Source of the DNA: Candidatus Brocadia sp.
GTDB taxonomy: Bacteria; Planctomycetota; Brocadiia; Brocadiales; Brocadiaceae
Assembly: GCA_021646415.1 (NCBI GenBank)
Contig: SOEU01000016.1
Coordinates: 1-64,000 of the forward strand
Length of the DNA stretch: 64,000 bases
Direction of reading: 5' to 3'
Made by a program: the position numbers and the translations under genes. Below, in pieces: positions 18,790 through 63,184 of this stretch. The notes under the pieces are model-generated. The model ran no database searches, was not told the origin of the DNA, and saw only the letters and a list, made by a program, of their open reading frames with translations. Numbering within the stretch: the stretch's first letter is position 1; each line of letters starts with the position of its first letter.

Positions 18790-18981
18790 TTAATTTCCTC
18801 TCTTCATAAAAGATATTTATCTCTATCATCTTCTTCCAAACTTCCGGGAGGTTCTGCATAGTGTTATCTCAGCAATGCAAAGTATATAACAACATCACGG
18901 GAGCCTTTCTGGAGATGTGTATCCAACACAGAAATCCCATTAAATTCTTCCGCCTTACTATCCATGCCCACCGAAAGAATT
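18694..18981. other. Element tail and short gap downstream of the ThDP gene pair
   Basis: Up to 18789 this is the transposon right end. Beyond it, a 33-codon minus-strand frame (ATG at 18965, stop at 18864-18866) follows the second ThDP gene. It could be a small gene but nothing supports it beyond its position. Confidence 0.35.
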
Positions 18982-20556
18982 TCACTTTATTATTATTGCA
19001 CAAGGTGTTTTGATTTTGCCCTTAACTATATCATCCCTTTTTATTGACAAAAGGTCTATCTCCTTTACAGGGCAGTCCATGCCTTCCAATGCTAATCTCG
19101 TGTTTGCTACATTATTGTCTTTATTTATAGTATCCACGCATATGATAGTAAACTCTAATCCTGCTGAAACGGCTGGTTGTAATTCTCTTATATGGTAAAA
19201 AAGTGAATTCTTATCCGTGATAAGAACTACGTTATTATCTGGATTACCAATCGCTGCACCTATCGCAAAAGGGAGTCCAGCCCCTGGTATGTCCCGGTCA
19301 TCCATGATAAAAAGATTTTTATAGATGGCCTTTCTAAAGAAACAAGATGCTGCAAGTGATAACTCTTTCCCATCAACGATAAAGATATCAGTGCCGGAAG
19401 AAATATTTTTAAGTGAAGCAAATATTTTCCCTGCATCGTCAAACCCTTTTGACAACTCTCCTGCTAATAGGTCGCAATTTTTATAGAAATCATCCCTCCA
19501 TGTACGGAAAGCGTTTTTATTCGTTTTCGCTTCTCGTTCAAAATAAGAGAAACTACTCTTGGGATCTGCATGTACGGGACAAAGGTTAGGAATGCTGTCT
19601 GCAAAAGCTGACGGATCAATTTCTATCTGGATAATACTCTTTAAATGCGAAGAATTTTTCATCTCAGAGAGAATACGTTCTGAATAAGGATCGATTCCTG
19701 CAATAATGAAAAGATCCGCCTTATTCAATAATTCAATTCCTAGCTTTGAATTCACGAATAACGAAGCATCTCCAGCATAACAATTATCATCACCACAAAA
19801 AACTCCGGAACTGTGCACTGTAGTTATAACAGGTATTCCCAGTTTATTTGCGGTCTCTTTCATCTCCTGATATCGCCCGGGACGTCCAAAACCCTGACCT
19901 AAAACAATAATAGGCCTTTCAGACTTTTGAATTGTCTCACAGGCTTCTTTCAGATAAAAGGAGTCTCCCACTATGTTACCTCTATACATCGTCCTCTCGG
20001 CAGGAGGCATTATACTCTGCCTTTTCTTTTTTGTAAGTACCTTGTATCTGAACAATACATCCACAGGGATATCAACATGTACCGGTCCTGGTATACCTTG
20101 CCACGCCTCCCTGAACGCCCTGTAAATCATTTGGGGTATTCTCTCCCAGGTGTAAACGATAGTATTCCATTTGGTAATAGGGAAAAATATTTCATCCTGA
20201 TTACAACCTTGTAAATTTTCCTGATGCGGTTTTATTTTCCAGCTTTGAAGCTGTGGGGCAATAGATAAAACAGGCAGATAATTGAACCACGCCTTTGACA
20301 GCCCTGAAACTTCATATATGACCCCAGCCCCGACCGTTGACATTGCTACGCTTGAGCATCCTGTAGAGGCAGTATAGCCGGATGCCATGAGAGCTGCGGC
20401 AGTTTCACAGCGTGGGACAATCAGCTTAATTTCCGGGAATTTTTCAAATGCATCATATACTGTGCCTATGTGTTCTCCGGATATAGAAAACACATACTTG
20501 ATTCCACATTGAACAAGTACATCTAAAAGCAATGCCCCCCCAGTGATTATTTTCAT
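18982..20556 (-). CDS. ThDP-enzyme-like protein lacking the cofactor-binding motif
   Basis: About 524 residues with the three-domain layout of acetolactate synthase/2-hydroxyacyl lyase enzymes. The N-terminal Pyr domain keeps the catalytic-type glutamate in RCETAAALMASGY. In the C-terminal PP domain, the position of the GDG-N motif that binds Mg2+-ThDP reads TDKNS where the upstream partner has GDGS, and the NN end is not clear. It probably cannot hold cofactor in its own PP domain. ATG at 20556 is preferred to GTG at 20571 because AGGTGGAGG lies just ahead. It starts two bases after the partner gene, so a heteromeric enzyme is plausible. Substrate unknown. Confidence 0.75.
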   Translation of the reverse strand: MKIITGGALLLDVLVQCGIKYVFSISGEHIGTVYDAFEKFPEIKLIVPRCETAAALMASGYTASTGCSSVAMSTVGAGVIYEVSGLSKAWFNYLPVLSIAPQLQSWKIKPHQENLQGCNQDEIFFPITKWNTIVYTWERIPQMIYRAFREAWQGIPGPVHVDIPVDVLFRYKVLTKKKRQSIMPPAERTMYRGNIVGDSFYLKEACETIQKSERPIIVLGQGFGRPGRYQEMKETANKLGIPVITTVHSSGVFCGDDNCYAGDASLFVNSKLGIELLNKADLFIIAGIDPYSERILSEMKNSSHLKSIIQIEIDPSAFADSIPNLCPVHADPKSSFSYFEREAKTNKNAFRTWRDDFYKNCDLLAGELSKGFDDAGKIFASLKNISSGTDIFIVDGKELSLAASCFFRKAIYKNLFIMDDRDIPGAGLPFAIGAAIGNPDNNVVLITDKNSLFYHIRELQPAVSAGLEFTIICVDTINKDNNVANTRLALEGMDCPVKEIDLLSIKRDDIVKGKIKTPCAIIIK

Positions 20557-20558
20557 TT

Positions 20559-22436
20559 TTAAGACCTCCACCTGGCCATTATGTTCACCCTCAATAAAGC
20601 TTTCCTGATATAGGTAAGATTAAAGAACACCTTGCTCCATCCTAATTTCATTATCAATAATGAACTCTTTAATACCTTAATCGGATTTAAAAGCTTCAAT
20701 AAACCATCAAACTCAATAAGAGAGAAACTCGACAGACAGTCCGGAAAATTGTTTTTGTCAGTTATAATATCAACGAGCGCAGCTCTGCCTTCACTTACCC
20801 CTTTTTCGTACGCGGGTAGTATGTCCTCGACCTTATCCACCCGTGTTGCAGGCAAGCCAAATCCCCGGGCTATTTTTGAGTAATCAATGTCAGGAAGCAT
20901 AGTGCCAACAAAATTTCCTGCAAACATGAAATACTGCATCGCCCTGATCATATTCCATGCAGAATCATTGGAGATTATTATCATAATAGGTAAGTTTAGC
21001 CTGCAAATGGTCTCGAGTTCCTGGATATGGTACAAAAATGACCCATCACCGCTTATCAGCATAACCCGTTTCCCCGGTGAGGCTAATTGAACCCCAATGG
21101 CATAAGGTATCCCACAACCAATTGCGGCCATGCCAAAAGGATAAAAAGATTGCCGGGGCCCCAGTGAAGGCGCATGCGTAGCAAAAAAAACTGGTGTGTT
21201 ACCTCCATCCAGTACCAAGACCAGATCATCCCTCTTTATGACTTTCCCCAGCTCTTGTATGACTTTTCCCTGTTGTATAACCGGCCACTTTTTATTGATA
21301 AATTTATTAAGTCTCTTGTACCGGCCCTCTTTCAGATGAGAAAGATACTTTGCCCATGACCTCCATGCAGGTTTTCCGCTAAAACCTTCAGAACGCAATT
21401 GCTCTGTTAATTGATTAAGAACAGTTTTAACATCCCCCAATATTGATATCTCGGGAGATACGTTCAGACCAATCTGAAGCGGATCTACATTGACATGAAT
21501 AAATTTAATCTTGTCAGACCATAAAGGAGGAAGACCAAATCCGTCTAATCCACAAAAGCTTACTCCCAGCGCCAGTACAATGTCAGCATCTTTGATAGCA
21601 ACATGAAAGGCCTCACCCGTTGTATAGGCCGGCCCGCCAAGGCAATACTCATGATCTGACGGTATAGAGCCGAAACCACCCATTGTTGTAGCAGCAGGAA
21701 TCTTAAACGCTTCAATAAAACGAATAACCTCTTCATAGGCCTCAGAGACTTTCACTCCTCCCCCGCAAAAGATGAGAGGTTTTTTTGCATTTTTAATACT
21801 CGATGCTGCTTTTTCAATTTTAAGTTTATCTCCGGCCAGCCTTATGGGTCTCATTTCGGTTGTAACAGATGAAGATGGCGGTGAGAATACGGTAGTATCA
21901 AAAGAGATTGTTTTCTCTAATAATCCGAAAGGTATGTCAATATGTACCGGACCTCTTTTATGCCTGGTACTTTCAAGTTTTCCCTTCTTTATAGTGTCTG
22001 GAATGCTCAAAAGTGTATTGATCCGTTTCCTCCAAATGGTAATCTCATGATACACTGTATTTTGGTCAAATCTGTATCTGTTGAACCCTTTATTGTAATC
22101 AACTTCATCATCATTGCAAATTGACAAAGAAAGCAAAGGGGTCTTATCAGCCCAGGAATTTGCAACTCCGTAAATCTGCGATAATGATCTGCCATTGTCA
22201 TCAGTTAATACAACGGCAAACTTCCCGGAACGCCTAATGTAACCATCTGCCATTAAGGCCGCTGCCCCTTCAGTTCTCGCAATAATTACGTTTATACTCG
22301 CCTTCTTTTCTAAACACGCTCTGAGAGGGCCAAGTCTGTCTGAAGATGTAGTAAAAACATAATTGATTCCATTGGCAGCAAGACTTCTCGCGATGAGTTC
22401 GTTACCTGAAAGATCTTCCACGTTTAAATCTCCCAA
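20559..22436 (-). CDS. ThDP-dependent acetolactate synthase / 2-hydroxyacyl lyase-like enzyme
   Basis: A 625-residue ThDP enzyme. Catalytic glutamate E56 lies in ARTEGAAALMADGY; the Rossmann-like middle domain contains IFCGGGVK (222-229); the cofactor motif GDGS is at 463-466 with its asparagine at 490 (SNDSAW). Residues beyond about 570 form an extra basic, hydrophobic tail (LLKLLNPIKVLKSSL..) absent from IlvB, perhaps a membrane-contacting segment. It starts 27 bases after the alpha-dioxygenase gene and is nearly fused to the following ThDP-like gene. It is too diverged from IlvB to be called acetolactate synthase; the family also includes 2-hydroxyacyl-CoA lyase and oxalyl-CoA decarboxylase. 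Confidence 0.8.
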   Translation of the reverse strand: MGDLNVEDLSGNELIARSLAANGINYVFTTSSDRLGPLRACLEKKASINVIIARTEGAAALMADGYIRRSGKFAVVLTDDNGRSLSQIYGVANSWADKTPLLSLSICNDDEVDYNKGFNRYRFDQNTVYHEITIWRKRINTLLSIPDTIKKGKLESTRHKRGPVHIDIPFGLLEKTISFDTTVFSPPSSSVTTEMRPIRLAGDKLKIEKAASSIKNAKKPLIFCGGGVKVSEAYEEVIRFIEAFKIPAATTMGGFGSIPSDHEYCLGGPAYTTGEAFHVAIKDADIVLALGVSFCGLDGFGLPPLWSDKIKFIHVNVDPLQIGLNVSPEISILGDVKTVLNQLTEQLRSEGFSGKPAWRSWAKYLSHLKEGRYKRLNKFINKKWPVIQQGKVIQELGKVIKRDDLVLVLDGGNTPVFFATHAPSLGPRQSFYPFGMAAIGCGIPYAIGVQLASPGKRVMLISGDGSFLYHIQELETICRLNLPIMIIISNDSAWNMIRAMQYFMFAGNFVGTMLPDIDYSKIARGFGLPATRVDKVEDILPAYEKGVSEGRAALVDIITDKNNFPDCLSSFSLIEFDGLLKLLNPIKVLKSSLLIMKLGWSKVFFNLTYIRKALLRVNIMARWRS

Positions 22437-22463
22437 TAGTTTAAATTACCTGTTTATTTCATA

Positions 22464-24899
22464 CTAATCCTTTAAAAAGTCTCCTCTTATCTGATATTCC
22501 AGGGCAAAATCAGATCTTTCCCGATCCCATAAATCGAAGGGATTTTTAACATTACGTAATGCTGGCCGAAGTTTTGGAAACTGCCGTCTGATGACATCCA
22601 CCATATTAGTGGTATTCACATAATCGAATCCCCACCGGGTATAAAATTCTGGCCGATAATGTTCGGTAAAAAAACGATCGCTAAACAACCTTCGGGAAGC
22701 GTTTAAAATAAAAACCTGAAACTGAGTTTCACTGATCACGAAGCCATGCGGCCGTGAGAACTCGGCGAGGAGACCAACCAGAAGATCTACTTTTTCAATG
22801 TCGCTGTCATAAACCTTGCGCATTTCTTCCACCAGCCGTTGCTGACGTTTCAGTTCTGCTTGTTTTGCCTGAAGTTCGTCAGCGGTAAGACTGGGATCTT
22901 TACGGAAATCACGCGATCTCTTGTTTTCAATTTCCCACACAAGCTCTTTGTCGATAAAATCGGTAAAATCCTTCAAAGGTTTCAGTTGCAGTTGCCGGCG
23001 AAATTCATTGAAGCGCGGGACCCCACGCTCTCTATCCCGAATAATGTCCATTGCAGCAAGGTCAATTTTACCTCCGGGTGCCTGGGGTACTGTAAGTTCA
23101 GTCATAAAACGGGGAAAATTTTCGAGGGTGAGTTGCCCACAGCCGGTAAGGCCAAAAGACAATGCGATGCTATCGATCCCGATTCCCCGTATAAAATGTT
23201 TCGAACCCTCCCTGACGGTATCGACGATGGCGATTTGGTCCTGAACGGTTTTTATACCAGGCACCTTACTTTCTAACTCTCTGCCGCTAAATTGTCGCAC
23301 TTCACCTTGGGAAAGTACGTCAGCATCATAAATTGCTAAATAATCTGGTATAGTGGGATGGAGCCGATAGACAGAAGTAAATTCCTCCGTTAAGGTGAAT
23401 GGGACACCAAAATGTTCAGCTCTGGGCATCCCCATGATTCCAGTGCCCGTAACCGCAAGGCTGACCAACTCATCTTTGCGAAGATTTTGTAATGTAGCGG
23501 TGAAGTTGTTGATAGCTTTCTTAGAGCCTTCCATGGCTATGCGCATGATTTCCTCTTTAAATAAGGAATCCCCTTGAGTGCTACGCAACAAGCCTTGCCA
23601 ATTGGTATGCATAGCCATGTCCCCCAGCCGATTATAAAGAAGTTGTGGTGTCCATTCAATGGTATGAATTTTGGCCAGTAATGCGGAGACGATTAGTCTG
23701 GCGGTATCATAGAGTTCCTCATCACTCCATGCTGCAGCCCCACTCGGGGGGGCAGCGTTTTGCCTCAATTGATCAACGATATAGTTGTGCTCTTTAGAAA
23801 ACATAGTGTGCATCAAACTAAGGCCTATCCACCAGTTATCTGCAAAAGCTGATATTTCCTGGTCAAGGAAGCCTTTGGGGGGATGGAGTCCAACTTCACT
23901 GTAAGTGGGGAGCACACCAGTTTCCGACACTTTTAATTTGGCTTTGTCTTTGGGATCGATCACTCTTTGTTGCGTTTCCTGGTCCCAACCGTAAAGTTGC
24001 GAGGCATCCCACCAGAAGGTCACCGTATTTTTCCATGTTTCCACTGGAATGTTTTTAAAGCCAGCCAAATCTTTTTGGTCGTCGTGGGGAGTTCGTGCCA
24101 CCTCCCAACCACCCTCTTGACCGACTTTCGGTAAGTTTTGCAATTTGCTTTCAGAAACGGAAAAGGTATTGCTATTATCGTTCCACCCATCACGGGTATG
24201 AGAAAACCAATCATGGGTCATAAATTGGATCCAGGCAGAGGCCCAAAGATTAAAAAATGGAGCTGCATGATGGTTAAAGGGGTCTTTTCTCACTAAAAGT
24301 CGTTCGCTGATAACGCGGGGATTAGGTTCACCCGCTTCCTGCGAAGAAGCCACTTTGCGATGGAAATCAATGATAGATATATTAGCGGTCTCAATGGTTA
24401 CATTCCGCCCGAATCGTTGACCTACGGAGCCCATCAATGGGTTGTCAAAATCGTTACAGCGTCCATCGAGGGCTCGTGCGCGGTAGACGGGATTTTTCAT
24501 ACTCCTTTCCCCGCAAGATGAACCATCCCGCATCGCCTTCCAGACAACCCGCCGTTCGTCTCCTGTTTGCTGGCCCCGGTCACCCCATGCGCCATTGGTA
24601 TCGTGCATATTCTTGGCCACAAGATTTATACGGAACTTTTCTAGCTCACCTAATGCGGCAGCAATACCAATAGCTTGTGTTAATTGATGTGCGGCGGTAT
24701 CATAACGTGTTCCCGTAAACCATTGCCAAAGTACCCAGGGGCGACCCTGATTGCGTTTCACTCTGGGATTCAACCAGGCTGCGATATCTTCTACCTCAGA
24801 TTTTGCTTCACTTACTCCGGTCTCTGGTTTTTTGCATCCAACAAAAGCAGACAAAAATATACTTGAGATTAATACTATGCGGATCATATCATTCTCCAC
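22464..24899 (-). CDS. Fatty-acid alpha-dioxygenase-like haem protein (lipoprotein)
   Basis: An 811-residue member of the animal haem peroxidase/cyclooxygenase superfamily, closest in motif pattern to plant pathogen-inducible alpha-dioxygenases, which insert O2 at the alpha carbon of fatty acids. Seen in order: a signal peptide with lipobox-like FVGC (C22); distal haem motif QFMTHDW (H229); WWDASQLYG (297-304); SKEHN (368-372); AKIHTIEWT (409-417); and YRLH (511-514), matching the catalytic tyrosine and proximal histidine pair of the family. It is longer than the plant enzymes (about 640). It sits 27 bases before two ThDP enzymes and 142 bases after a GMC oxidoreductase. Activity and substrate are inferred from family only. 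Confidence 0.83.
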   Translation of the reverse strand: MENDMIRIVLISSIFLSAFVGCKKPETGVSEAKSEVEDIAAWLNPRVKRNQGRPWVLWQWFTGTRYDTAAHQLTQAIGIAAALGELEKFRINLVAKNMHDTNGAWGDRGQQTGDERRVVWKAMRDGSSCGERSMKNPVYRARALDGRCNDFDNPLMGSVGQRFGRNVTIETANISIIDFHRKVASSQEAGEPNPRVISERLLVRKDPFNHHAAPFFNLWASAWIQFMTHDWFSHTRDGWNDNSNTFSVSESKLQNLPKVGQEGGWEVARTPHDDQKDLAGFKNIPVETWKNTVTFWWDASQLYGWDQETQQRVIDPKDKAKLKVSETGVLPTYSEVGLHPPKGFLDQEISAFADNWWIGLSLMHTMFSKEHNYIVDQLRQNAAPPSGAAAWSDEELYDTARLIVSALLAKIHTIEWTPQLLYNRLGDMAMHTNWQGLLRSTQGDSLFKEEIMRIAMEGSKKAINNFTATLQNLRKDELVSLAVTGTGIMGMPRAEHFGVPFTLTEEFTSVYRLHPTIPDYLAIYDADVLSQGEVRQFSGRELESKVPGIKTVQDQIAIVDTVREGSKHFIRGIGIDSIALSFGLTGCGQLTLENFPRFMTELTVPQAPGGKIDLAAMDIIRDRERGVPRFNEFRRQLQLKPLKDFTDFIDKELVWEIENKRSRDFRKDPSLTADELQAKQAELKRQQRLVEEMRKVYDSDIEKVDLLVGLLAEFSRPHGFVISETQFQVFILNASRRLFSDRFFTEHYRPEFYTRWGFDYVNTTNMVDVIRRQFPKLRPALRNVKNPFDLWDRERSDFALEYQIRGDFLKD

Positions 24900-25041
24900 T
24901 TTGAAAAGATTTGCAATAAAACGAATGTTTTTTTAGGCTGAAGATATTTTCAGATAATCTGCTGTATGTGGGGGCCTCCTTTCCCTGCTCATTGTCTCTT
25001 TTAACACTATCACTCCATGTGCACGAAAGCAGGAGCATCTC

Positions 25042-27408
25042 TCATCCATGAGTTTGTTGACTGGGCAAGAGATGTTTCACATATGTTTCATATAATTCAC
25101 CAAAGAAAAAGGACATAAATTTGTTTTTAGTACTGAGTGCTGTCTTGAAATTGGGCGCATTACGAACCCTAATAGTGGCTAACTGTTCGGTAATATCATG
25201 TAAATGTATACGAATAATTCCTTGCCCTAATACAGGGTCTTGAGTGGTATTCCCTTTGTAAATCGTAGCGAAAAGGGTTGTATAATCTTTCCATATTTCC
25301 CAGGTATCAAAATCAGGGTCATCCCGAATCTCTTTATAGCCGTCTAGCAAGTAAGGTTGGCCATCGTCATCGAGGAATTGTAATGAAAAGAGCATACGTT
25401 TTGTATGTATTTGCGGGTCTTTGATGAACAAGTTAAACCGCCCTTGTTCAACCATTTGCTTCATGCTTCTTATCTTTATATGGCCTTCTGCACGAGCATC
25501 ATGTGCGTGTTCAATCACAAATTTATCGACACTGTCTATGTACACTGTTAGTTTAAAGCCGATATTGTTCCCTTCCTGTTTTCCACGAGTTTCAGCTTTA
25601 CAGTAATCTTCAGGTGTTTTTGCATTTGTCACACTCTCCGTAAAATAGCCATTCATCTCTGTGGTAAATTCAATTCCTACAAGAGGTGAAATAACCGACG
25701 GAGGGGGGAGACCGCCTTCCCTTGGTTTCTTATTTATGATGGTATCCTGAACGATCAGGTCAGCGATTCGTTCAGATAAAGCGGAGATAGTAAAAAACGG
25801 ATTCACTCCTAACGAGGTTGGAATTATTGAACCATCAGCAACAAACAGTCCATTATGAACTGAGCCTAATGTATCTTGTGCCGGATCAAAGACCCTCCCG
25901 CGATGATCAACAACGCCTATATCAGCACTTTTGCCCATAGCACAACCCCCCAGCGGATGAACCGTAATTATATTCCTGCCAAAGAACGGCGTCCACCTGG
26001 GATTCCTGATGTAAGTCCCTCCCAGTGCTTTCGTTAGTTGTTTCATTTCATCATCAATCTTTTGAAAAATTGGTTTGGACGGTGCTGCTGCCCAGTGAAT
26101 GCGTATCTTCCCTTCAGGGTCAACAGCAATAACGCCATCTGCGCTGTCGTGCCCTATTCCCAGATATAACATGGAATGGTTCAGGGCACCTTTTGCATCA
26201 TAATGTGCAATATCTCTCACCACCCGTGCGGCTTCTGAAGCCTCATCAATGACACTGAAATCGGTGTCATGGCCGACAGCCGCACTGATCTTTGGCATAG
26301 CGTACCGGGTAAAGTCTACGAATGCCCGAGGAAAATCACCCTCTTCTATGATGTAACGGTCTTTCAGATCCAGTTCTTTCCTGCGATAATCGATAACAGA
26401 GAGGATCAAAGGACCGACTTGAATCTTCGAACGTTTGTCTCGAATATTGCCAAAACCGAGCACATCGGTTTTCTGGTCATTATTATAACCAACCCCAAAT
26501 GAGTCTGCATTTCCGGAAAAATAATGCCCAAGCTTATCAGAAACGGCAAGACCACGATCGCGGGAATTCAACAGTATATGCGTAGATCCCAAGGCACCGG
26601 CAGCTATAATGACGACATTTGCATGAATAAACCTGGATTTTTTGTCCTCCGAATGGGAGGTACAATGCACAAAATAACCACCACCATCGGCTTTACTAAT
26701 GTAGTTGACTTCCATTTCCGTTATAATGAATGCGCCCTGACTTTTCGCAAAAGGAAGATAATTCATGTATAATGTATTCTTAGCCAGGACGTTACAGCCG
26801 GTCATGCAGTCGCCACATAAAATGCAAGGTCTTTGATGTACACCAACATGATTGGGTTCATCATTATATTTTTCAAAATTAACTGCCAGATTCAGTTTAT
26901 AGTATTTACCGGGACGGTCTTTGGCTGATTTTTCATGCGCTTTTATTTTCCCCACAGATGGACGGTTGTCCGGATAGACAGCGCCCTGTAACATGTCATT
27001 TACTTTTTCAAAATATTTATTGAGTTTGCCATTATCCTGGTCTTCACGAATCTCGTCAGGCCATCTGGTGTTGTTAAAAACGTCGTCTTCCGGTTTAAAG
27101 ATGACGTTCGCATTAATTAAAGATGTCCCACCAAGACCACAGCCCACAAAAACATCAACGTCCTCAGTTACACGATAGTCATATAATCCTAATGGATTGC
27201 TATCTGAACGAAACTGTGCAGTTACTTCATCGATTTCATCAGGAAACTCGCCCGGTATCCACTCTTTACCTCTTTCGAGAAGACAGACCTCATATCCTGC
27301 TGCTGCCAATCTTGCCGCAGTTATTGAGCCACCATAACCTGAACCAATGACTATAATTCCATAACGATCTTTCAGTTCTGTTATTGAATTAGATAACTTT
27401 GTGCTCAT
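25042..27408 (-). CDS. GMC-family (cholesterol-oxidase-type) flavin oxidoreductase
   Basis: A 788-residue FAD enzyme. The N-terminal dinucleotide motif GSGYGG is at 22-27 and a second FAD loop, GLGGTSLINA, at 91-100. A four-cysteine cluster (C195, C198, C201, C205) may bind metal or an Fe-S centre. The HPLGGCAMG motif (484-492) and C-terminal NPFFT (536-540) are typical of cholesterol-oxidase-type GMC proteins. Residues about 570-788 form the extra C-terminal domain common in bacterial homologues. No signal peptide. It likely oxidises an alcohol or hydroxylated lipid. Being on the same strand and just upstream of the alpha-dioxygenase, it could act on that product. Confidence 0.82.
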   Translation of the reverse strand: MSTKLSNSITELKDRYGIIVIGSGYGGSITAARLAAAGYEVCLLERGKEWIPGEFPDEIDEVTAQFRSDSNPLGLYDYRVTEDVDVFVGCGLGGTSLINANVIFKPEDDVFNNTRWPDEIREDQDNGKLNKYFEKVNDMLQGAVYPDNRPSVGKIKAHEKSAKDRPGKYYKLNLAVNFEKYNDEPNHVGVHQRPCILCGDCMTGCNVLAKNTLYMNYLPFAKSQGAFIITEMEVNYISKADGGGYFVHCTSHSEDKKSRFIHANVVIIAAGALGSTHILLNSRDRGLAVSDKLGHYFSGNADSFGVGYNNDQKTDVLGFGNIRDKRSKIQVGPLILSVIDYRRKELDLKDRYIIEEGDFPRAFVDFTRYAMPKISAAVGHDTDFSVIDEASEAARVVRDIAHYDAKGALNHSMLYLGIGHDSADGVIAVDPEGKIRIHWAAAPSKPIFQKIDDEMKQLTKALGGTYIRNPRWTPFFGRNIITVHPLGGCAMGKSADIGVVDHRGRVFDPAQDTLGSVHNGLFVADGSIIPTSLGVNPFFTISALSERIADLIVQDTIINKKPREGGLPPPSVISPLVGIEFTTEMNGYFTESVTNAKTPEDYCKAETRGKQEGNNIGFKLTVYIDSVDKFVIEHAHDARAEGHIKIRSMKQMVEQGRFNLFIKDPQIHTKRMLFSLQFLDDDGQPYLLDGYKEIRDDPDFDTWEIWKDYTTLFATIYKGNTTQDPVLGQGIIRIHLHDITEQLATIRVRNAPNFKTALSTKNKFMSFFFGELYETYVKHLLPSQQTHG

Positions 27409-27485
27409 TGCGTTCCTCCCGGTATAAAAGATGAATACTTATTATCACTAATTAGTAAATGATAGAATACTATGATAGATTACAT

Positions 27486-27645
27486 AATGTGGCGAAGCCG
27501 CAGCCAAAATAACCGCCCCTCTTTCCCCCCTTCGCAAGGAGGGGACTTCGTCGTGAGCTCAGTCGAACGATGAAGGAGAGGTAAAAAACTTCCTCAAAAC
27601 TTGTCCTCATGAAAATGGGGAAAGAAGTTTTTATACAGTAATACT
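27486..27645 (+). repeat. ~160-bp dispersed repeat, copy 1 (inverted relative to 41537-41698)
   Basis: Nearly identical to the reverse complement of 41537-41698. It contains internal palindromic stretches, including CCCCTC..GAGGGG-type pairs and an imperfect palindrome around GTGAGCTCAGTCGAAC. It has no coding potential and sits between the GMC and metallophosphoesterase genes. Its size and internal hairpins suggest a MITE-like element. Confidence 0.8.
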
Positions 27646-27664
27646 TTAGAGCAGCTACGCAGCG

Positions 27665-29791
27665 CTAGGGGATATTTGCATGTGAGAATTCAGTAATCTG
27701 CCCCTCCTTGTTTATGACTACCCGTCTGTAATATGGCGGTTGATTGCCTAGCCTTCGTATTCCACAGGATGCAGTTTGGACGATTACAGGACTCTGCCCC
27801 CACCATGCATACGGCTTGTCATGGTTAAAATTTTCGCTGTACCTGTCGTGATATATCCTGATCTCATGATTTTTATCTTTCTCTATCCTAAATTCAATAT
27901 TCCGGTGGGCGTGTCCTGAAAAAACAATGTCTATTAACTTAAACTTACGATCCGCGTCCTGTTTTACCAGATCTCCCTCTCTGTATCCCATGCAGAGATA
28001 AAAGAACTCGCTCAGATAATAATTAATCGTTCCGTATGTCAGATTACATTCCTCTTCAGGAACCCACCTTGGTCCTGCCTTTCTTTCAACTTCCCGCAGG
28101 GTATCCATATCAACATGCTCGGGTGAGTTGATGGGAGGGGCGTGGAAAAAGATGAAATTTCTACCATGAGCATCTGGCTTCTTACTCACAGCTTTCATGA
28201 CTTTCTCTAACCATACTATTTGGCTCCAATTATAATAAACCTGTTCTGGATCAAACGCCTTTGAATCGGGAGATCCTCCCAGGATATTATCCTTTACACC
28301 TATTTTCTTGAGGTATTTAATCTCTTTCTTATCCAAAATTTGCCCAATGAAAATATCAGATCCTGTATCCATAATTATAAAGCAATGGTTTCCATAGTAA
28401 AAGGCATAGTCAAGGTATGGGTTTATATATCTGAAATAATAATGAAGTGCGCAAGCTTCAGCATGGAGGGGATTGTCTATAATGAAGTCAGCTATTTTAC
28501 GCGTCTGATATCTTATAAATTTATTAATCCCCCATGTTGCTATTCCTGCAATTCCGGCAATTATAAAATGAGAAACGTAATTTGCTATTGGATTTACCTT
28601 TTCTCCTATACCTATCAATCCTAAAAGCGGCAAAATATGCATGAGCCAGGTTCCTATAATACTGCCAAGAAACTTTTCCAACTGTATTTTCCATTTATCG
28701 GTTTTTTTCAGGGCGTCAAGGTTAAGTCTATTTAAGGCACCGCTCGTTATCTCTTCCGCCAATTTTGCCCTCTTATCCTCTGGGTATTCTGAAGAATCAA
28801 AGGATTTGTATCTATAGTGTTTAAGCTCATCTTCCATTAAGCCGAAAGTGTCTCGGTTGTACTTTGAAATGTTTGGATCGTAAGGGCGAAGACGCCAATC
28901 ATGATTCCCGGTTGATGTAAAAACCGCTATTTTTATACCGGGATTATTCCGTTCCTTTTCCTTTCCTGCACCAGTAATTATATTAACGAAGGTTTTCCAA
29001 TTGTTTTCATCTAAATTTATTTCGTCTTCCCAACCATGAAAGGCAAAATCTACTAAATCTCCTGTAATTACAACAAAGTCAAGTTCACCCTCCTCAGCCA
29101 TACTGTTTGCTTTCTGGATAAACTTTCTCAGGTTATGGTTGAAGTTAATGTATCTCTTTGCGATGTCGTCTCCACTTCTCTTCTCATACTTTACTTTCAA
29201 GACTTCATCGAGGATCTCGTCATTCCGCGTGGCAACATGAAGATCGGTGACCTGAATGAATTTGCAGCCATCACCAAAGCTTTTAACAAATTGTACAGAA
29301 TGGTAGTTAACCCTCTCCCACTTTTCTGATTGGTCTCTGTATACCAAATCGTAAAGACACGGAGGGCATTTTCCTCCCTTTTGAGATAAAAGAAGAGTTT
29401 CATAATCTTCTGTACTTTTACAATCGATACTGACCGCGATTTTCCAATACCGGGTATTCTCACCCATTACATTGTAATGGAACTCACTAGGAATAATCTC
29501 TCTCGTATCGTCTACACTATTGAAATCCGATAGTTGATACCAATGAATAATCTCCTCAGGTTCATCGCTAATAGATAGTGGAATATCTTTTTTATCTTCA
29601 TTTCCTTTATGAGAAGGCCGTAAATATAAAGTTCCCGTGAAATCATCCTTTATGGGAACCTTGTTTCCCCTGTATTGTCCGGCTATTATTAACGAAAACA
29701 CCTTCTCTTGCTTAAACTCCTCAGTAGAAATAATCTGCGGGCAACCGAGGTTAGGACTTATTATCAATGGAAAATCATCTCTTTTTGTCAA
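27665..29791 (-). CDS. Metallophosphoesterase with a membrane segment
   Basis: A 708-residue calcineurin-like phosphoesterase. Metal-site motifs are in order: TDLH (182-185), TGDLVD (243-248), TGNHDW (294-299) and a C-terminal GHAHRN. Two hydrophobic stretches (LMHILPLLGLIGIG and FIIAGIAGIATWGI) in the insert between GNHD and GHAH could anchor it in a membrane. The N-terminal 170 residues are a beta-rich domain I do not recognise. It is upstream of the GMC-dioxygenase-ThDP genes on the same strand, separated by a MITE-like repeat, so membership of that operon is uncertain. Substrate unknown. Confidence 0.8.
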   Translation of the reverse strand: MTKRDDFPLIISPNLGCPQIISTEEFKQEKVFSLIIAGQYRGNKVPIKDDFTGTLYLRPSHKGNEDKKDIPLSISDEPEEIIHWYQLSDFNSVDDTREIIPSEFHYNVMGENTRYWKIAVSIDCKSTEDYETLLLSQKGGKCPPCLYDLVYRDQSEKWERVNYHSVQFVKSFGDGCKFIQVTDLHVATRNDEILDEVLKVKYEKRSGDDIAKRYINFNHNLRKFIQKANSMAEEGELDFVVITGDLVDFAFHGWEDEINLDENNWKTFVNIITGAGKEKERNNPGIKIAVFTSTGNHDWRLRPYDPNISKYNRDTFGLMEDELKHYRYKSFDSSEYPEDKRAKLAEEITSGALNRLNLDALKKTDKWKIQLEKFLGSIIGTWLMHILPLLGLIGIGEKVNPIANYVSHFIIAGIAGIATWGINKFIRYQTRKIADFIIDNPLHAEACALHYYFRYINPYLDYAFYYGNHCFIIMDTGSDIFIGQILDKKEIKYLKKIGVKDNILGGSPDSKAFDPEQVYYNWSQIVWLEKVMKAVSKKPDAHGRNFIFFHAPPINSPEHVDMDTLREVERKAGPRWVPEEECNLTYGTINYYLSEFFYLCMGYREGDLVKQDADRKFKLIDIVFSGHAHRNIEFRIEKDKNHEIRIYHDRYSENFNHDKPYAWWGQSPVIVQTASCGIRRLGNQPPYYRRVVINKEGQITEFSHANIP

Positions 29792-30166
29792 TTGAATCTC
29801 TTTTCCTTTCTTTGGGTAATCATTCTGTATAATTTTAATAAACTGACAGTACTACCGTAGAGATCAAATACAGGTTTTTCCATGTTCTTCTACTTTTTCA
29901 ATCCTGAAAATAAAAAAGCCTTACTGCAAAGATATATTTACAACATCTTCGGCAGTAAGGCTGTCTTTTTATGAAAGGTATTTTATGCTACTTCCCTGTA
30001 TGCTTAAAAGACCCTTTACTTTGCGTCCTCTGATTGCTCAGAGTTTGCCTTTATCGTATTGTTTTTGTTTATATTCCTTCATGCTGACAAAAATCATAAT
30101 TGTCAGTCTTCCGCATTAAAATATCAAAGTATCGTTGGAAGTCAAGGGAAAAAATAACACAGAATT
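29792..30166. other. Intergenic region with terminator
   Basis: Holds the upstream region of the metallophosphoesterase gene and the terminator of the trk operon (listed separately). No other gene-like signal was seen. Confidence 0.6.
29911..29968 (-). terminator. Bidirectional-looking terminator after trkH
   Basis: An eleven-base perfect stem (AGCCTTACTGC, 29917-29927; GCAGTAAGGCT, 29952-29962) encloses a 24-base loop that can extend the pairing with AAGAT/ATCTT. On the minus strand it is followed by TTTTTTATT. It also has a T-run on the plus side. It ends transcription of the HEAT-trkA-trkH unit. Confidence 0.75.
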
Positions 30167-56650: not shown

Positions 56651-56806
56651 GCGCTCTTCGAGAGCCTTGCGCGTGTAGTCGAAGCCCTTGTGAGTGTTCA
56701 GATCCATTCAACGAAACGTCTGGGTCGGATAGATCGGTGTAGTCGCGCTGTTTAATGTCGAGTCCTTGTCGACCCCGAAGTGAACGCATTTAGTCTCGAG
56801 TCGCAT
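56651..56806 (-). pseudogene. 5' remnant of a Cys/Met-metabolism PLP enzyme
   Basis: ATG at 56806, eight bases after the preceding gene's end, opens RLETKCVHFGV .. TTPIYPTQTFR, the N-terminus of cystathionine gamma-synthase / methionine gamma-lyase-type enzymes. A TGA follows directly, then the frame continues with HKGFDYTRKALEER, which lacks the conserved GNPT after YTR. Sequence identity ends near 56650, at the edge of the AT-rich repeat nest. The gene is GC-rich like the adjoining glycosidase gene, so it belonged to that segment. Confidence 0.75.
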
Positions 56807-56814
56807 GAACCCTT

Positions 56815-59790
56815 CTACCCCACTCTCACAGCCATTTCGACGGCCACGCCGGGAGGTGCGGAAACGATGATGCCTCCGGGGGGTGTGATTGGTGGGCCGT
56901 CGAGCATCAGCTTCACCGTGTGAGCGCCGGTACGGCGCAGCGTGTAGGACAGCGGCCCGTAATAGGTCTGCAGGTTGCGGACACCGACGACTCCATCGTC
57001 GGCGAGCCAAAACTCTGGCACCCCGGCGGCGAGCACCAGCGCCTGGTCCGAGTGCCGCTCGTATGCGAACAGGCTCATCACGGCGAGCACGTACTCGGCA
57101 CCTATCCACGAATGCGGAATGTCGCCGAGATGACCGGGGCTTCGCGGGTCACGCCACGAGATCTCGGGCCACTGGTTCCACGCGCGCGGGCGGCGGTCGC
57201 TGAGGAAGAACTCGAGCAGCTCGTGTGCCTCGCTACACCTTCCGAGTCGCACGAGCGCGCCGATGATGCGGATCTCATAGGCGGTGTAGTTGGTCCAGTC
57301 GGCCGCACCGTCGCGGCGCGCACGAAACCAGGCCAGATACTGCTCGTACGTGGCATCGAGCTTTCCGCTCGGCAGACGCTCGGCAGCGTCTGTGATCTGT
57401 AGCGCGGCGGCGGTGGCGGTCGGATCGAAATCCGCCCACTCCACTGATCCCGGAACATACGTGAGGCCCTTCTCGGAGATCAGGGTGTTGATCGATGCGT
57501 AGAGCGAGAGCTCGAGCGACGCGCGCAAATCGGTAAATCGCTGTGCCTCAACGGACTCGCCGAGAATCGTCGCGATCTCGGCTGCATCGCCAAGACCGCG
57601 CACCGCCCAGAAGTCGTCCCAATACGAGTGCACTGGCTGCGCTAGATACCCTTCGTGACTCACCGACTCGGGCAACAGCCCATGACACGCTCGTTTCGCT
57701 CCGCGCTCGTACTCGGGCGTCAAGCGCGCGGCACGCAGCCGCTCGAGGTAGCCGGACGCTCGCCAAACGCACGGCCACGTCTCAACGAGCAGATCATAAT
57801 CTCGCGTGAACCGGTAGTGCTCCATGATCGTGAACAGAAGCTGGCCATGGCTGTCGTGCTCGGCAAGCCAGTCTGGGCCTGTCTCGTCGACGCAGCACGG
57901 CACGTTGCCGTCCGCTGCCTGGTGCGAAGCGTACCAGCGGATGTAGTCGCGCACCTCATCGTGCCAGCCCATGCGCAACGCGGCGGCGGCCATCATAGCG
58001 CCGTCGCGAATCCACGAGCGAGTGTAACGGCGCGGGCCTGGTTGCAGTGCGGGGCCGTTGCGGTTGACGAGAATATGCGCGGCAGCCGTTTTGACAGTGT
58101 TCACGACGTCGCGTGCGCGTGACGGCACAACGAGATCGAAGCCCGAAAGCGCACGCCCCCACCGGCGCTCCGCACGCACCGCCTCACGCTCGAACGTGTC
58201 GTTCGTCGCGGTGCGAAGCCGTGCGATCACCTCATCTTGCCGGACCGTGTCGGCGGAGCCAAACGGCACCGCGATCCACACGTCAGCTAACCGCCCTGGC
58301 TCGATGGCGAGATCATAAGCGAGCGCGGCCGAACAGTAGCCGAAAGCATCATTGACCTCGATTGCCGGCGGCAACTCGCCCCGCGCCACATACGCAGTGA
58401 TCGGCCCTTCGTCAAACAGAGCGGCACCGAAGCCCGATGGTACCGGCTCGCCGAGCGGCACGATCGCTCTCGAGTCGTTCACCCATACCACGCCGTCGAA
58501 CAGCTTGATTCGCTCGACCCGTGAGACGCCGCCCATACCGCGAAACGCCTGCCATGGCGGATCCACCTGTACGGGTCTGACGGCGACATATAGCCGTACT
58601 GTCGTAGTCTCAGTGCCGTGTTTTTCGATGCGATAGCGTGCGAGCACGACGGGCGCATCGCCCATACTCGCTACCCATACTGTCGTTTGCAGCAAGATGT
58701 CGCCGCACCGCCAGACAGTTGACGGAATCGGCAGATGGTCGCTCTCGAGCGCTTGCGTGATGTCGGCATTGGCCCATGTGATGAGCTCGCCGTTGACCGC
58801 AAGCAACGGTTCGAGCGAGAATGAGCCTTTGTCGATCTCAATCAGCCCGTCCTCATTCAGCAACGCCTGCGGGCCGCCTTTGACCGAGGCTACCGCCGTC
58901 CAGTAAGCCTGTTCGCCATGAAGCCATCGAGGAAACCGCCCCCTTGGCTCGCGCGCAGCGACGCTTCGAAAGAACGAGTCGATTGTGCGTGAGACGTCGA
59001 ATGGCTCGATCTCGATCGATTCGATTGCGTTTTCACGACCGCTCGACGGCTCGCGAATCTCCACACGCAGCCGCGTCACGGAAGCGTTGCCGGGCGCGTA
59101 GATGTAGCTTCGCTCCCCTGCCGCACGCGGAGCCGACCAGATCATCGTCCATCTAATGCCGTCGTCTGACGCGCGCAGGTCGAACGCGCGTGCGCCCGTG
59201 AGCGCATCCCACACGATCGTAAACCCACCGTGCTCGCGTGGTTCATGAAGATCGAGTTCCATCCACTCGCAACCATGCGTGCGGCCCCGCGTAACGCTCG
59301 GCGCGGGATGCTGACTGCGGTCCTCCAGCGCTAGATCTTCGATCCACACGTGCCCTCTTCCTCCGGTGACGGCGACGATCGCGATCTCGATCGCGCCGAG
59401 ATGCTTAATCGTGCCTCCGCCGGCAGGACCCCATGCGAACTCTAGCTCACGGCTCGGAATCGTCAAGCGCCCCCACTGCTTCGGGAAGTCGAAAACGTCG
59501 CGCCGATACCACCAGACGTTGTGGCCCGACGTGTCGACGAGCTTTACCTCGAGCTTGTTCGGCGGCGCTTCACCGCGAATCCCAAGCGACAGCGTAAACG
59601 TGGTCGGTAGCCGCCTCACGAGCTCGCGGCGGGCGACGGCGAAGCCGCCGCCTTTGAAATCGAAGTCTAGTCTCAGAGCCGCATTGGCATGCGAGCCGGC
59701 GTCAGCAGCAAGCGCGAGCGTCGCCTGGCCAGAGGCGACAGGCATCCATACCACCGGATCGGTGAAGTCGTCAAGCACCTCAGTCTTCAT
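56815..59790 (-). CDS. Large six-hairpin glycosidase-like protein with N-terminal beta-sandwich
   Basis: A 991-residue protein, GC-rich. The first ~270 residues contain beta-sandwich modules resembling carbohydrate-binding or F5/8-type domains (WIEDLALEDRS, VTRLRVEI). Residues about 560-900 form an (alpha/alpha)6 toroid-like region with RSWIRDGAMMAAA, PCCVDETGPDW and EHDSHGQLLFTI. No catalytic acid can be assigned by eye, and no signal peptide is obvious. Its start overlaps the GH94-like gene's stop by four bases, so the two are translationally coupled and probably act on the same polysaccharide. Confidence 0.7.
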   Translation of the reverse strand: MKTEVLDDFTDPVVWMPVASGQATLALAADAGSHANAALRLDFDFKGGGFAVARRELVRRLPTTFTLSLGIRGEAPPNKLEVKLVDTSGHNVWWYRRDVFDFPKQWGRLTIPSRELEFAWGPAGGGTIKHLGAIEIAIVAVTGGRGHVWIEDLALEDRSQHPAPSVTRGRTHGCEWMELDLHEPREHGGFTIVWDALTGARAFDLRASDDGIRWTMIWSAPRAAGERSYIYAPGNASVTRLRVEIREPSSGRENAIESIEIEPFDVSRTIDSFFRSVAAREPRGRFPRWLHGEQAYWTAVASVKGGPQALLNEDGLIEIDKGSFSLEPLLAVNGELITWANADITQALESDHLPIPSTVWRCGDILLQTTVWVASMGDAPVVLARYRIEKHGTETTTVRLYVAVRPVQVDPPWQAFRGMGGVSRVERIKLFDGVVWVNDSRAIVPLGEPVPSGFGAALFDEGPITAYVARGELPPAIEVNDAFGYCSAALAYDLAIEPGRLADVWIAVPFGSADTVRQDEVIARLRTATNDTFEREAVRAERRWGRALSGFDLVVPSRARDVVNTVKTAAAHILVNRNGPALQPGPRRYTRSWIRDGAMMAAAALRMGWHDEVRDYIRWYASHQAADGNVPCCVDETGPDWLAEHDSHGQLLFTIMEHYRFTRDYDLLVETWPCVWRASGYLERLRAARLTPEYERGAKRACHGLLPESVSHEGYLAQPVHSYWDDFWAVRGLGDAAEIATILGESVEAQRFTDLRASLELSLYASINTLISEKGLTYVPGSVEWADFDPTATAAALQITDAAERLPSGKLDATYEQYLAWFRARRDGAADWTNYTAYEIRIIGALVRLGRCSEAHELLEFFLSDRRPRAWNQWPEISWRDPRSPGHLGDIPHSWIGAEYVLAVMSLFAYERHSDQALVLAAGVPEFWLADDGVVGVRNLQTYYGPLSYTLRRTGAHTVKLMLDGPPITPPGGIIVSAPPGVAVEMAVRVG

Positions 59791-62700
59791 GGTTCTAGCC
59801 GGACCTCGAGGACGTTCATGTCAGGACGGAGACGCCGGCGCAGCAAACCGAGATCTACGCGCACACCACCGGTGCGATAGCGGTTGGGCTCTCGCTTGAA
59901 CGGCAACGCCTCGCCGTTCAGCGTGAGCGCGATCGGGCTGCAGCCCTTGCGGCCCGTACGGTAGATCATCGTCACGGGCGCATCCGCAAGACGAATCTCT
60001 GCGCGCAGGCCATCGAGCCCTGTGGGAACGACCGGATCGATTACCACCGAAGTCGCGTTCCTCCGGACGCCGACGAAGCACTCGTGAATCAAGCGGTAGA
60101 CAATGCCGGGCCCGCTCGAGTAGACGCGCCAGCCGCCCTCGACTGTGATAGTACCGCGCATGACCTCTTTGTAGCGCGCGCTCGCTTCGTAGCGATCGTA
60201 GAAGGCGGCGTCCGAGCTCGAGTGGTAGCAGTTCGCTTGGCGAGGCGCCGCGGCTGGCACGACCGAGGCCAGCGCGATCGGGTTCGCCTGCCTCAGCGCA
60301 AGGAAGAAAGCGTCGGCATCGCCGTAGTGCGCCATCGCCTCAGCGTAACGCAGGTGCGCGTGCATGTACATGACGCCGATTTCGCGTCCGAAGAATGTGC
60401 TGCTCTCGGCGCGTTGGAAGTGCTGCTGCGGGCCGCCTTGGTAGCGCGGTGGCCGGTCAAACAGCCGCGCGCCGTCGGGAGCGAGCAGGTGCTCGCGAAT
60501 GTAGCCTACGTGCACCTCCGCCTGCTCTGGTGTGAATAGTTCGTAAAGAATTGAGTGGATCATTGGAAGCAGTCTATACGAGATGCCGGTCATCGTGTCG
60601 CTCGGATGCAGGAGACGGACGACCACACCACCCTCGCTCAAAAAAGCTGCGAAGCCCGCAAACCCAGCGAGCACACTGCCATCAATAAGAAAGCGTTGAT
60701 AGTCTGCGAGCACTTCTGCCGCCTGGGCCTCGAGGTCAGATGCAAGCGGGCGAGCAGTGTCACGGCCGACCCGCCGCAGCCCATCCGTAAGCGTGCGAAG
60801 CGTGTGGTAGTGCAATGTCACTGTCCACGAGCTGCACATCATCTCCTTCATCGTCGGATCTACTGGCTGCAGCGTATCGTTCCAATCGCCGTTGCCATAG
60901 ACGGCAAGGTGAGTCCCGGCGACCACACGCTTCGCGATGACGTCGAGAGCGCGCTCGACATGTACCGACATTACCGCCATCTCGCCGTGTGCGACACCGC
61001 GCTCGTCGTAAAACGGAAAACGCTCATCGAGAATCGAGGGGTCTTCGGTCGCCGATAAGTATTGGCCGAGAGCCAGCAGTGGCCAAAACACGATGTCGCC
61101 GTGTGAGTCGGGCGCACGGATGCCGCGCTCACGCTCGAAGAACATGAACCACTGCGGCCAGTCGCCGTCGGGGTTCTGCGCGCGAAAGATGCGGAGCAGC
61201 AAATCTCGAAGCGTCTCGTAATCGCCGCGCGCGAGCAGCAGCTCGACCGGCCCTTGACAGATGTCGCGCGTGCCCCAGCCGCCATTGGCGTACTGCTCGA
61301 TGCCATGCGGGGCCAGATAGTGAATGAGAGCGTTCTGCATGAACCACGGCAAGATCTCGCGCAGCCGCAGCACATCGGCGGCGAGGATCGAGCGAGCCGG
61401 AGGAGCGAAAACGAGCGGTCCAGCGAGGTTACTCCAATACGCGGCCTCACGCGATTGTTCCACCTCACCTGGCTGGGCCGACGTGTTGTCAGTGTCGCTC
61501 TCAATGAGGCATCCGAGGATGCGAAGCCCCACAGCGGTCGCAGGCGCTGTCACGATCGTTACGAATGGCTCGCCACGCGAGCGGCCGTCGACGAACAGCA
61601 ACTCATCGCCGCCGACGCGCTCGAAGTGTGTGCCGCGCGAGGCATCGATGCGGAAGAAACCGTCGGGAAACCGCGAGCCAATCTCGGAGTCACGCTGCGG
61701 TCGCACGACGACGCCGCGCTGGTCGCGGGCGAAGAGCACAGGCGTGCCGGTCGCACCGTCATCGCCGTTTAAAGCAATGCGAGTGGAGATGAGAAAACGA
61801 CATGGTGGCCCCTGGCGCACATCGATGTCAAGCGAGATCTCGTGACAATAAAGCGAGGCCGCTACGCAGATCTCGATCAGCCGACCGGAATACTTGTAAA
61901 ACCAGCGGCAACGGCTCGGTAACATCTCGAATGCAGAAGGCGTAGCGAGCAAATGGTAGCCGTCGTCGAGTTCGACGAATATCCGTTGGCCGTCGGCGCG
62001 TGGCGTACCCGACAAGTCGCGGTAGCCGTGCGTCGCCGCGACGAAACGGTTGATGTTGGTGTGACCCTGGGTGAGCATAGCGTTGAACACGCCGCGCATC
62101 CATACCGTAGAGGAGAGTGCCGCTTCGTCTGGCTTCAACGCTGCCCCGGTGCGAAGGATGTGCGCGTGCGGCCGCAGCACAGCGCGCTCTTTCGCCGCAA
62201 GTACCACGTGGCGGTCTGAGCCAATGAAATACGACAGCAGCCGACCATCGCGTCTCTCTTCTTCCCGACGGTCGGAGCCGAATAACGATGTAATTTCCCC
62301 GTCAGTCATATCTTCGCCAACGAGCGACGGCACAAGTCCGAACAAGCTTGGCGCGGGCGAGTCACCGTATGGGAAGGCAGAATCCTTCGGTGGCACGGCT
62401 GCCTCGGGAAGCGCGAGCGCTCGATCGACGTGCGCGAGGTCGGCCGGCGAGCTCGCGGCCTGGTGATCCGGCGCAAAGTAGCCGAAGAACCCACGCTCGA
62501 CGGCAGCCCCCGGGCCCAGCCACACGCCCTCGTCCTGAATCATGGCCATCGCGTGCTCGTGCTGGCGCCGCCGGCTCTCGAGCCGCTCGAGGGCGAGGCC
62601 GTCTAGTTGAAGCGCGTCGGTCGCGAAGCCAACTCCATGGCCAAGCGATCCGAGCATCACCCACGGATGGCGTCCACCCATCGGCAGATTCTGTCGCACC

Positions 62701-63176: not shown

Positions 63177-63184
63177 AGCGCAGC

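Follow-up and report, generated by a model that had tools for sequence, protein, structure and literature searches.

A five-gene cassette in a 64,000-nucleotide stretch of DNA from Candidatus Brocadia sp. (positions 1 to 64,000 of contig SOEU01000016.1, assembly GCA_021646415.1; referred to as the window) is described here. The cassette (~18,976-30,072) consists of a riboswitch followed by genes for a metallophosphoesterase, a GMC flavo-oxidoreductase, a fatty-acid alpha-dioxygenase-like haem protein (DOX), and two homologues of thiamine diphosphate (ThDP) enzymes, denoted ThDP1 and ThDP2. We propose that it would form a regulated and self-contained unit that uses O2 to alpha-oxidise a free fatty acid or a fatty-acid-like lipid, a proposal that in our judgement stands an even chance of being right. 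Its fullest version, a cyclic di-GMP (c-di-GMP)-induced, O2-dependent alpha-oxidation/oxylipin pathway in anammox bacteria with a composite-site heteromer of two full-length paralogues, is offered as a possibility that we hold to be doubtful.

The dioxygenase retains the tested alpha-dioxygenase active-site residues

DOX (22464..24899, minus strand, 811 aa) matches PF03098 (An_peroxidase) with E=2e-83, and among solved structures the plant alpha-dioxygenases come closest (E=2e-79), with lactoperoxidase and cyclooxygenase far behind. H229 and the motif Y511-R512-L513-H514, singled out in an earlier reading of the window made without database searches (the sequence-only reading), align with the distal histidine, the catalytic tyrosine and the proximal histidine of rice alpha-dioxygenase, and the substrate residues H311, T316 and R559 of the rice enzyme correspond to H412, T417 and R737. 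H229 is kept in 80/80 aligned rows, and H412, T417, Y511, H514 and R737 in 79 of them, the other row being gapped. The roles of the catalytic, carboxylate-binding and alpha-carbon positioning residues of alpha-dioxygenases have been described (PMC8720084). With the PF03098 match, the plant enzymes as best structures, and all six tested active-site residues kept, the alpha-dioxygenase assignment made in the sequence-only reading is supported, and DOX would be expected to form a 2-hydroperoxy fatty acid using O2.

The N-terminus of DOX contains a hydrophobic stretch (residues 4-22) ending in VGC (MIRIVLISSIFLSAFVGC), which suggests a putative lipoprotein that is predicted to be exported. In the DOX tree the Brocadiaceae sequences form a clade whose sister is a large bacterial group of long proteins, and a separate clade with CalDOX and the Streptomyces and Rhizobium proteins is sister to the clade holding Brocadia, the rice enzyme falling outside; the outgroup branch is very long and the search was a quick one, so that the root is uncertain. 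A distant relative of DOX (520 aa, ~23% identity) is also encoded in G036, a genome of another family, away from the ThDP pair of that genome (L149 9255-10817).

Motif losses in ThDP1 and ThDP2 are complementary

ThDP1 (20559..22436, minus strand, 625 aa) matches the Pfam TPP_enzyme N, M and C domains, and ThDP2 (18982..20571, minus strand, 529 aa) matches TPP_enzyme_C weakly (25.5 bits). ThDP1 keeps the glutamate of the PYR domain (ARTE) as well as the pyrophosphate motif GDGS...ND, and its pyrimidine-side loops are altered to FTTSSD/FTASSD and TDDNGRS, two sites at which almost every reference sequence shows F-G-x-x-G and GPG-like loops (GxPG, SGPG). It ends in a basic, hydrophobic tail of 60 aa. 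ThDP2 also keeps the pyrimidine-domain glutamate and is nearer normal at the pyrimidine-side loops (FSISGE, TVGAGV); in 5/5 orthologues its GDG is replaced by TDK, SDK, CDK or CDT, and a deletion follows the position of the Asn after GDG. The pyrophosphate domain of ThDP2 is thus likely to be non-catalytic. The gene is nevertheless under purifying selection (ratio of nonsynonymous to synonymous substitution rates, dN/dS, 0.16-0.19) and is therefore not a pseudogene.

The motif losses of the two proteins are complementary in all orthologues, and this pattern is most simply read as two subunits that depend on each other in a heteromer and build a single type of functional active site. It is probable that the pyrimidine side of ThDP2 and the pyrophosphate side of ThDP1 make up one composite enzyme. 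The sequence-only reading had proposed two separate ThDP enzymes, which does not agree with the loss of the cofactor motif GDG...N from ThDP2 in all orthologues.

Placement of ThDP1 within acetolactate synthase (IlvB) was rejected by the approximately unbiased (AU) test (p=0.012), and its NCBIfam scores lie far under the cut-offs (277 bits with a cut-off of 866). The sequence-only reading had taken the ThDP enzymes to lie outside acetolactate synthase and had linked them to the chemistry of 2-hydroxyacyl-CoA lyases (HACL). The first point holds for ThDP1. A grouping of ThDP1 with HACL and oxalyl-CoA decarboxylase (OXC) is absent from the best tree, and a joint clade is not rejected (p-AU 0.19). 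The best solved relatives of ThDP1 are mostly carboligases, namely glyoxylate carboligase, acetolactate synthase and benzaldehyde lyase. A literature search on BbmA/CsmA found nothing.

A predicted c-di-GMP riboswitch precedes the genes

Upstream of the metallophosphoesterase gene lies a c-di-GMP-I-GGC aptamer (RF03167; 29947..30058, minus strand; Rfam E=1.5e-13) with an intact core and a score above the gathering score (66.6 vs 59 bits), which is the sole Rfam match in the window. It overlaps an intrinsic terminator, AGCCUUACUGC...GCAGUAAGGCU-UUUUUU (29912..29962, minus strand), identified from the sequence and the minimum-energy fold. The terminator is the ligand-free minimum-energy fold (z = -6.75), and likewise in both orthologous copies 5' of the phosphoesterase gene, in G005 (L146 17220-17331, minus strand) and G003 (L147 5184-5295, plus strand). 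Since the 5' arm of the terminator is also the 3' strand of the aptamer, binding of c-di-GMP should block termination in this expression platform, and we infer that the predicted aptamer acts as an ON switch. A scan for sigma-70 promoters showed no enrichment compared with shuffled sequences.

The c-di-GMP-I-GGC family is exceptionally abundant: it matches this genome 44 times, genomes of the genus have 22-57 copies each, and 14 control genomes have none. This copy number would represent an unusually large riboswitch regulon. Judged by eye, the first genes 3' of the riboswitches that were read include many for predicted exported proteins, one for a ferredoxin-like protein and one for a rubredoxin-like protein. 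Literature searches found nothing on c-di-GMP riboswitches in anammox bacteria, and no link of RF03167 riboswitches to alpha-oxidation genes was found in searchable sources.

The cassette is conserved and movable

The assembly of the window comprises 3.8 Mb, and of the named relatives Candidatus Brocadia sp. BIN37 stands closest to it, in line with the Brocadiales-type host supposed in the sequence-only reading. That reading had described a four-gene cluster, and its four open reading frames are all present at the positions given, all on the minus strand, with the 27-nt gap between DOX and ThDP1 and the 13-nt overlap of ThDP1 and ThDP2 as read. Transcription thus proceeds towards lower coordinates. 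The extent of the cluster had to be revised, as the unit also includes the metallophosphoesterase gene directly upstream of the GMC gene, and the riboswitch.

Among 59 relatives DOX was found in four genomes (that of the window, G003, G005 and G018), and in all four the GMC, DOX, ThDP1 and ThDP2 genes are contiguous and in the same order. The conservation expected by the sequence-only reading is thus seen in all four Planctomycetota genomes that were found to have this DOX, and recurrence of the same order in the three further genomes shows that the arrangement is not due to chance. Three carriers are Brocadia and have the phosphoesterase; in G003 and G005 it likewise opens the block and is 88-91% identical. 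The fourth, G018, represents another genus and has the last four genes, and its locus of 20 kb gave no riboswitch match. No further DOX carrier came from a sample of 343 Planctomycetota, and only 4/33 of the Brocadiaceae genomes searched carry the block. Every gene of the cassette is under purifying selection (dN/dS 0.07-0.23), with dN/dS of 0.07-0.19 for the four genes common to all carriers.

Nucleotide homology with the two other Brocadia blocks starts where the ThDP2 stop codon lies (18,976-18,981) and extends as far as 30,072 or 30,204. The edges are sharp, with unrelated genes beyond them in the three Brocadia genomes, and the block thus occupies a different genomic site in each genome; by these comparisons the cassette is movable. 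The 11-kb block of G005 is flanked by two riboswitch copies that point the same way (L146 6365-6481 and 17220-17331), and recombination between such similar repeats could move the cassette. In G003 (L147 16091-16577) a distance of ~130 bp separates the end of the block from the 3' end of the tmRNA gene, where genomic islands commonly insert; the G003 contig showed no integrase that was noticed.

The GMC flavoenzyme and the metallophosphoesterase

The GMC protein (25042..27408, minus strand, 788 aa; PF00732/PF05199) had been read as cholesterol-oxidase-type. Its best PDB matches are indeed cholesterol oxidase (E=2e-23), but membership of that family is not borne out by the score of 190 bits against a curated cut-off of 850. 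Residues 195-205 form a CxxCxxCxxxC motif that is shared by nine Brocadiales homologues and is not seen in the GMC neighbours of Nitrosomonas and Calothrix dioxygenases. These neighbours belong to another GMC subfamily and were discarded as orthologous support. If the cysteines carry an iron-sulphur cluster, the enzyme may perhaps be a dehydrogenase and not an oxidase, which would suit an anaerobic host. The C-terminal domain (~575-780) has no Pfam match and is found N-terminally in the homologues L151, L157, L158 and L194. Large proteins adjoin such permuted homologues in Brocadiales (L157 13658-16252 and L158 12545-15388), the former with caspase and DUF7379 domains and the latter with the GMC extension domain.

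The metallophosphoesterase (27665..29791, minus strand, 708 aa; PF00149, E=2.4e-7) has one predicted transmembrane stretch by hydropathy (residues 378-396).

Dioxygenase neighbourhoods in other bacteria

Outside Planctomycetota, 80 loci of one genome scan and ~24 plasmid records, a non-random sample, were surveyed, and 90 dioxygenase loci (80 from the scan and 10 from plasmids) were examined with home-made profiles. A catalase-related gene occurs within 6 kb of DOX in 33 of the 90, mostly immediately downstream, and in seven further loci from Rhizobium, Phyllobacterium and Nonomuraea (L172, L173, L174, L175, L176, L177 and L179, two of them confirmed with Pfam) a catalase-related domain is fused to DOX. 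The Phyllobacterium locus and three Rhizobium loci have the order patatin - ThDP - catalase::DOX, with patatin recognised where annotated or tested. On a Streptomyces plasmid the order is ThDP enzyme of the benzoylformate decarboxylase family - FAD-linked oxidase - P450 - hydrolase - DOX, with MarR/Ohr (organic-hydroperoxide resistance) genes nearby. The Nitrosomonas DOX loci L053, L054 and L065 share a conserved set of a DyP-like peroxidase, a catalase-related protein, a cytochrome-c-like lipoprotein and a GMC enzyme.

A common lineage of ThDP1 and the dioxygenase-linked ThDP enzyme of Rhizobium was ruled out (p-AU 0.002), and the neighbourhoods have therefore arisen in parallel and were not inherited. 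By analogy, the recurrence of DOX-ThDP neighbourhoods in unrelated bacteria adds support for a common pathway. The route that these neighbourhoods suggest, from 2-hydroperoxide to 2-hydroxy acid, 2-oxo acid and decarboxylation, may be transferred to Brocadia with caution.

A proposed pathway and its alternatives

In the proposed pathway, exported and lipid-anchored DOX would convert a fatty acid with O2 to the 2-hydroperoxy fatty acid, as its conserved residues imply. This product would yield the one-carbon-shorter aldehyde and CO2 or be reduced to the 2-hydroxy acid, both of which are established chemistry of the family, and the GMC flavoenzyme with its Fe-S motif may oxidise the hydroxyl or alcohol product. 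The heteromer of ThDP2 and ThDP1, with its active site between the pyrimidine domain of the former and the pyrophosphate domain of the latter, could then decarboxylate the resulting 2-oxo acid or couple the aldehyde with a further unit to give an acyloin. As no gene of the block handles CoA, this step is more likely to be a decarboxylation of 2-oxo acids or a carboligation, free of CoA, than a lyase reaction. The phosphoesterase might act on a lipid head group or on the supply side. High c-di-GMP would turn the operon on, because the bound ligand would occupy the strand that builds the terminator; here the homology is observed and the direction of the switch is predicted.

Several observations weigh against this proposal. 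The host is an anaerobe, and DOX is predicted to be exported while ThDP1, ThDP2 and the GMC enzyme have no signal peptide, so that intermediates must cross or sit in the membrane. The five genes of the block include none for an acyl-CoA ligase, an aldehyde dehydrogenase or a catalase-related protein, and a search of the carrier genomes, run without a positive control, did not find a catalase-related gene. The case for a composite site comes from two loops; both ThDP proteins keep the glutamate, and the PYR-domain Pfam scores differ mildly (65 bits for ThDP1 vs 77 for ThDP2). AlphaFold2 models of DOX (mean predicted local distance difference test score, pLDDT, 47.5; 26-row alignment) and of the GMC enzyme (pLDDT 26.9; 6 rows) were too poor to interpret. 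The main argument against all genes serving the DOX product is the modular origin of the block. The ThDP1-ThDP2 pair occurs in G036 (72-76% identity) without DOX, and the phosphoesterase adjoins GMC homologues without DOX in G021, G039 and G053. The modules thus have functions independent of DOX, and the make-up of the block suggests that two older modules came together around a dioxygenase.

This modularity favours an explanation in which DOX is a passenger, or protects the cell by consuming O2 or lipid peroxides at the membrane, and the ThDP and phosphoesterase-GMC pairs do unrelated work under a riboswitch that is common in the genome. The anaerobic host and the many genes with the same riboswitch would also fit, but the contiguity of the four genes at different sites in four genomes, the close gene spacing, and the independent origin of DOX-ThDP neighbourhoods in other phyla speak for a joint function, and we consider this explanation unlikely. 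Similarly improbable, in our estimate, is that the cassette makes an oxylipin or secondary lipid, the aldehyde from DOX being carboligated with a 2-oxo acid by ThDP1/ThDP2 to a long-chain acyloin that is oxidised by the GMC enzyme, to give a signal or protective lipid instead of degradation. Such biosynthesis is consistent with the carboligases among the relatives of ThDP1, with c-di-GMP control, which fits a signalling or surface lifestyle better than catabolism, with a block that has no CoA or beta-oxidation genes, and with its patchy, cassette-like distribution. The function of best matches is, however, weak evidence for the subfamily of ThDP1, and the ThDP enzyme of the Streptomyces analogue is of the benzoylformate decarboxylase family.

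The sequence-only reading had favoured alpha-oxidation by two separate ThDP enzymes of the 2-hydroxyacyl-CoA lyase type, perhaps of ladderanes. An OXC/HACL clade that includes ThDP1 is compatible with the data at p-AU 0.19 and ladderanes occur in the host group, but ThDP2 has no cofactor motif and the block contains no gene for an acyl-CoA ligase, formyl-CoA or CoA-transferase function. Furthermore, ladderanes are general in Brocadiaceae, whereas most of the Brocadiaceae sampled do not have the block, and no evidence in favour of ladderane remodelling was found. We regard this version as very improbable. In our view the CoA-free alpha-oxidation proposed above remains the preferred reading, and the cassette suggests an O2-dependent lipid pathway so far undescribed in anammox bacteria.

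To our knowledge, the biology of alpha-dioxygenases has been studied almost solely in plants, and in cyanobacteria as isolated enzymes. An equivalent fatty-acid pathway is stated not to have been reported outside plants (PMC8720084). The Brocadia operon and the clusters of Rhizobium/Phyllobacterium and Streptomyces are concrete candidates for the fate of the 2-hydroperoxide in bacteria, and with the ThDP pair it can be tested whether duplicated enzymes decay in complementary ways. If c-di-GMP controls a lipid enzyme that consumes O2, this would also bear on how anammox bacteria meet oxygen in biofilms.

Other features of the window

The end of the window (56800-64000) has a GC content of ~63%, compared with ~41% elsewhere, and contains a gene for a GH94-like oligoglucan phosphorylase (59787-63227) as well as a 991-aa open reading frame without Pfam match. 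It may be a recent transfer or part of a chimeric contig.

Comparison with known systems

Brocadia DOX shares the PF03098 fold and all six active-site residues with the plant and cyanobacterial alpha-dioxygenases (PDB 4KVJ, 4HHR; CalDOX of Calothrix, PMC8720084), and is ~34% identical to the homologue of Calothrix PCC 6303. Unlike these enzymes it is longer (811 aa), with extra N-terminal and internal segments, is a putative lipoprotein, and shares its operon with genes for GMC and ThDP proteins. The catalase::DOX fusions of other bacteria resemble in plan the allene oxide synthase-lipoxygenase fusions of corals (PMC5617202). The GMC enzyme differs from the cholesterol oxidase type by its CxxCxxCxxxC motif and C-terminal domain, and within the c-di-GMP-I-GGC family (RF03167) the Brocadia terminator shares the 3' strand of the aptamer. 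ThDP1 has the PYR-TH3-PP architecture in common with IlvB, glyoxylate carboligase and BbmA, but falls in its own clade and has lost the pyrimidine-side motifs. In the heteromeric ThDP decarboxylases ComDE and RhiEF the active site has been proposed to lie between the pyrimidine- and pyrophosphate-domain subunits (PMC12141560). The subunits of these enzymes are single-domain halves, whereas ThDP1 and ThDP2 are paralogues that each comprise all three domains and appear to have decayed in opposite halves.

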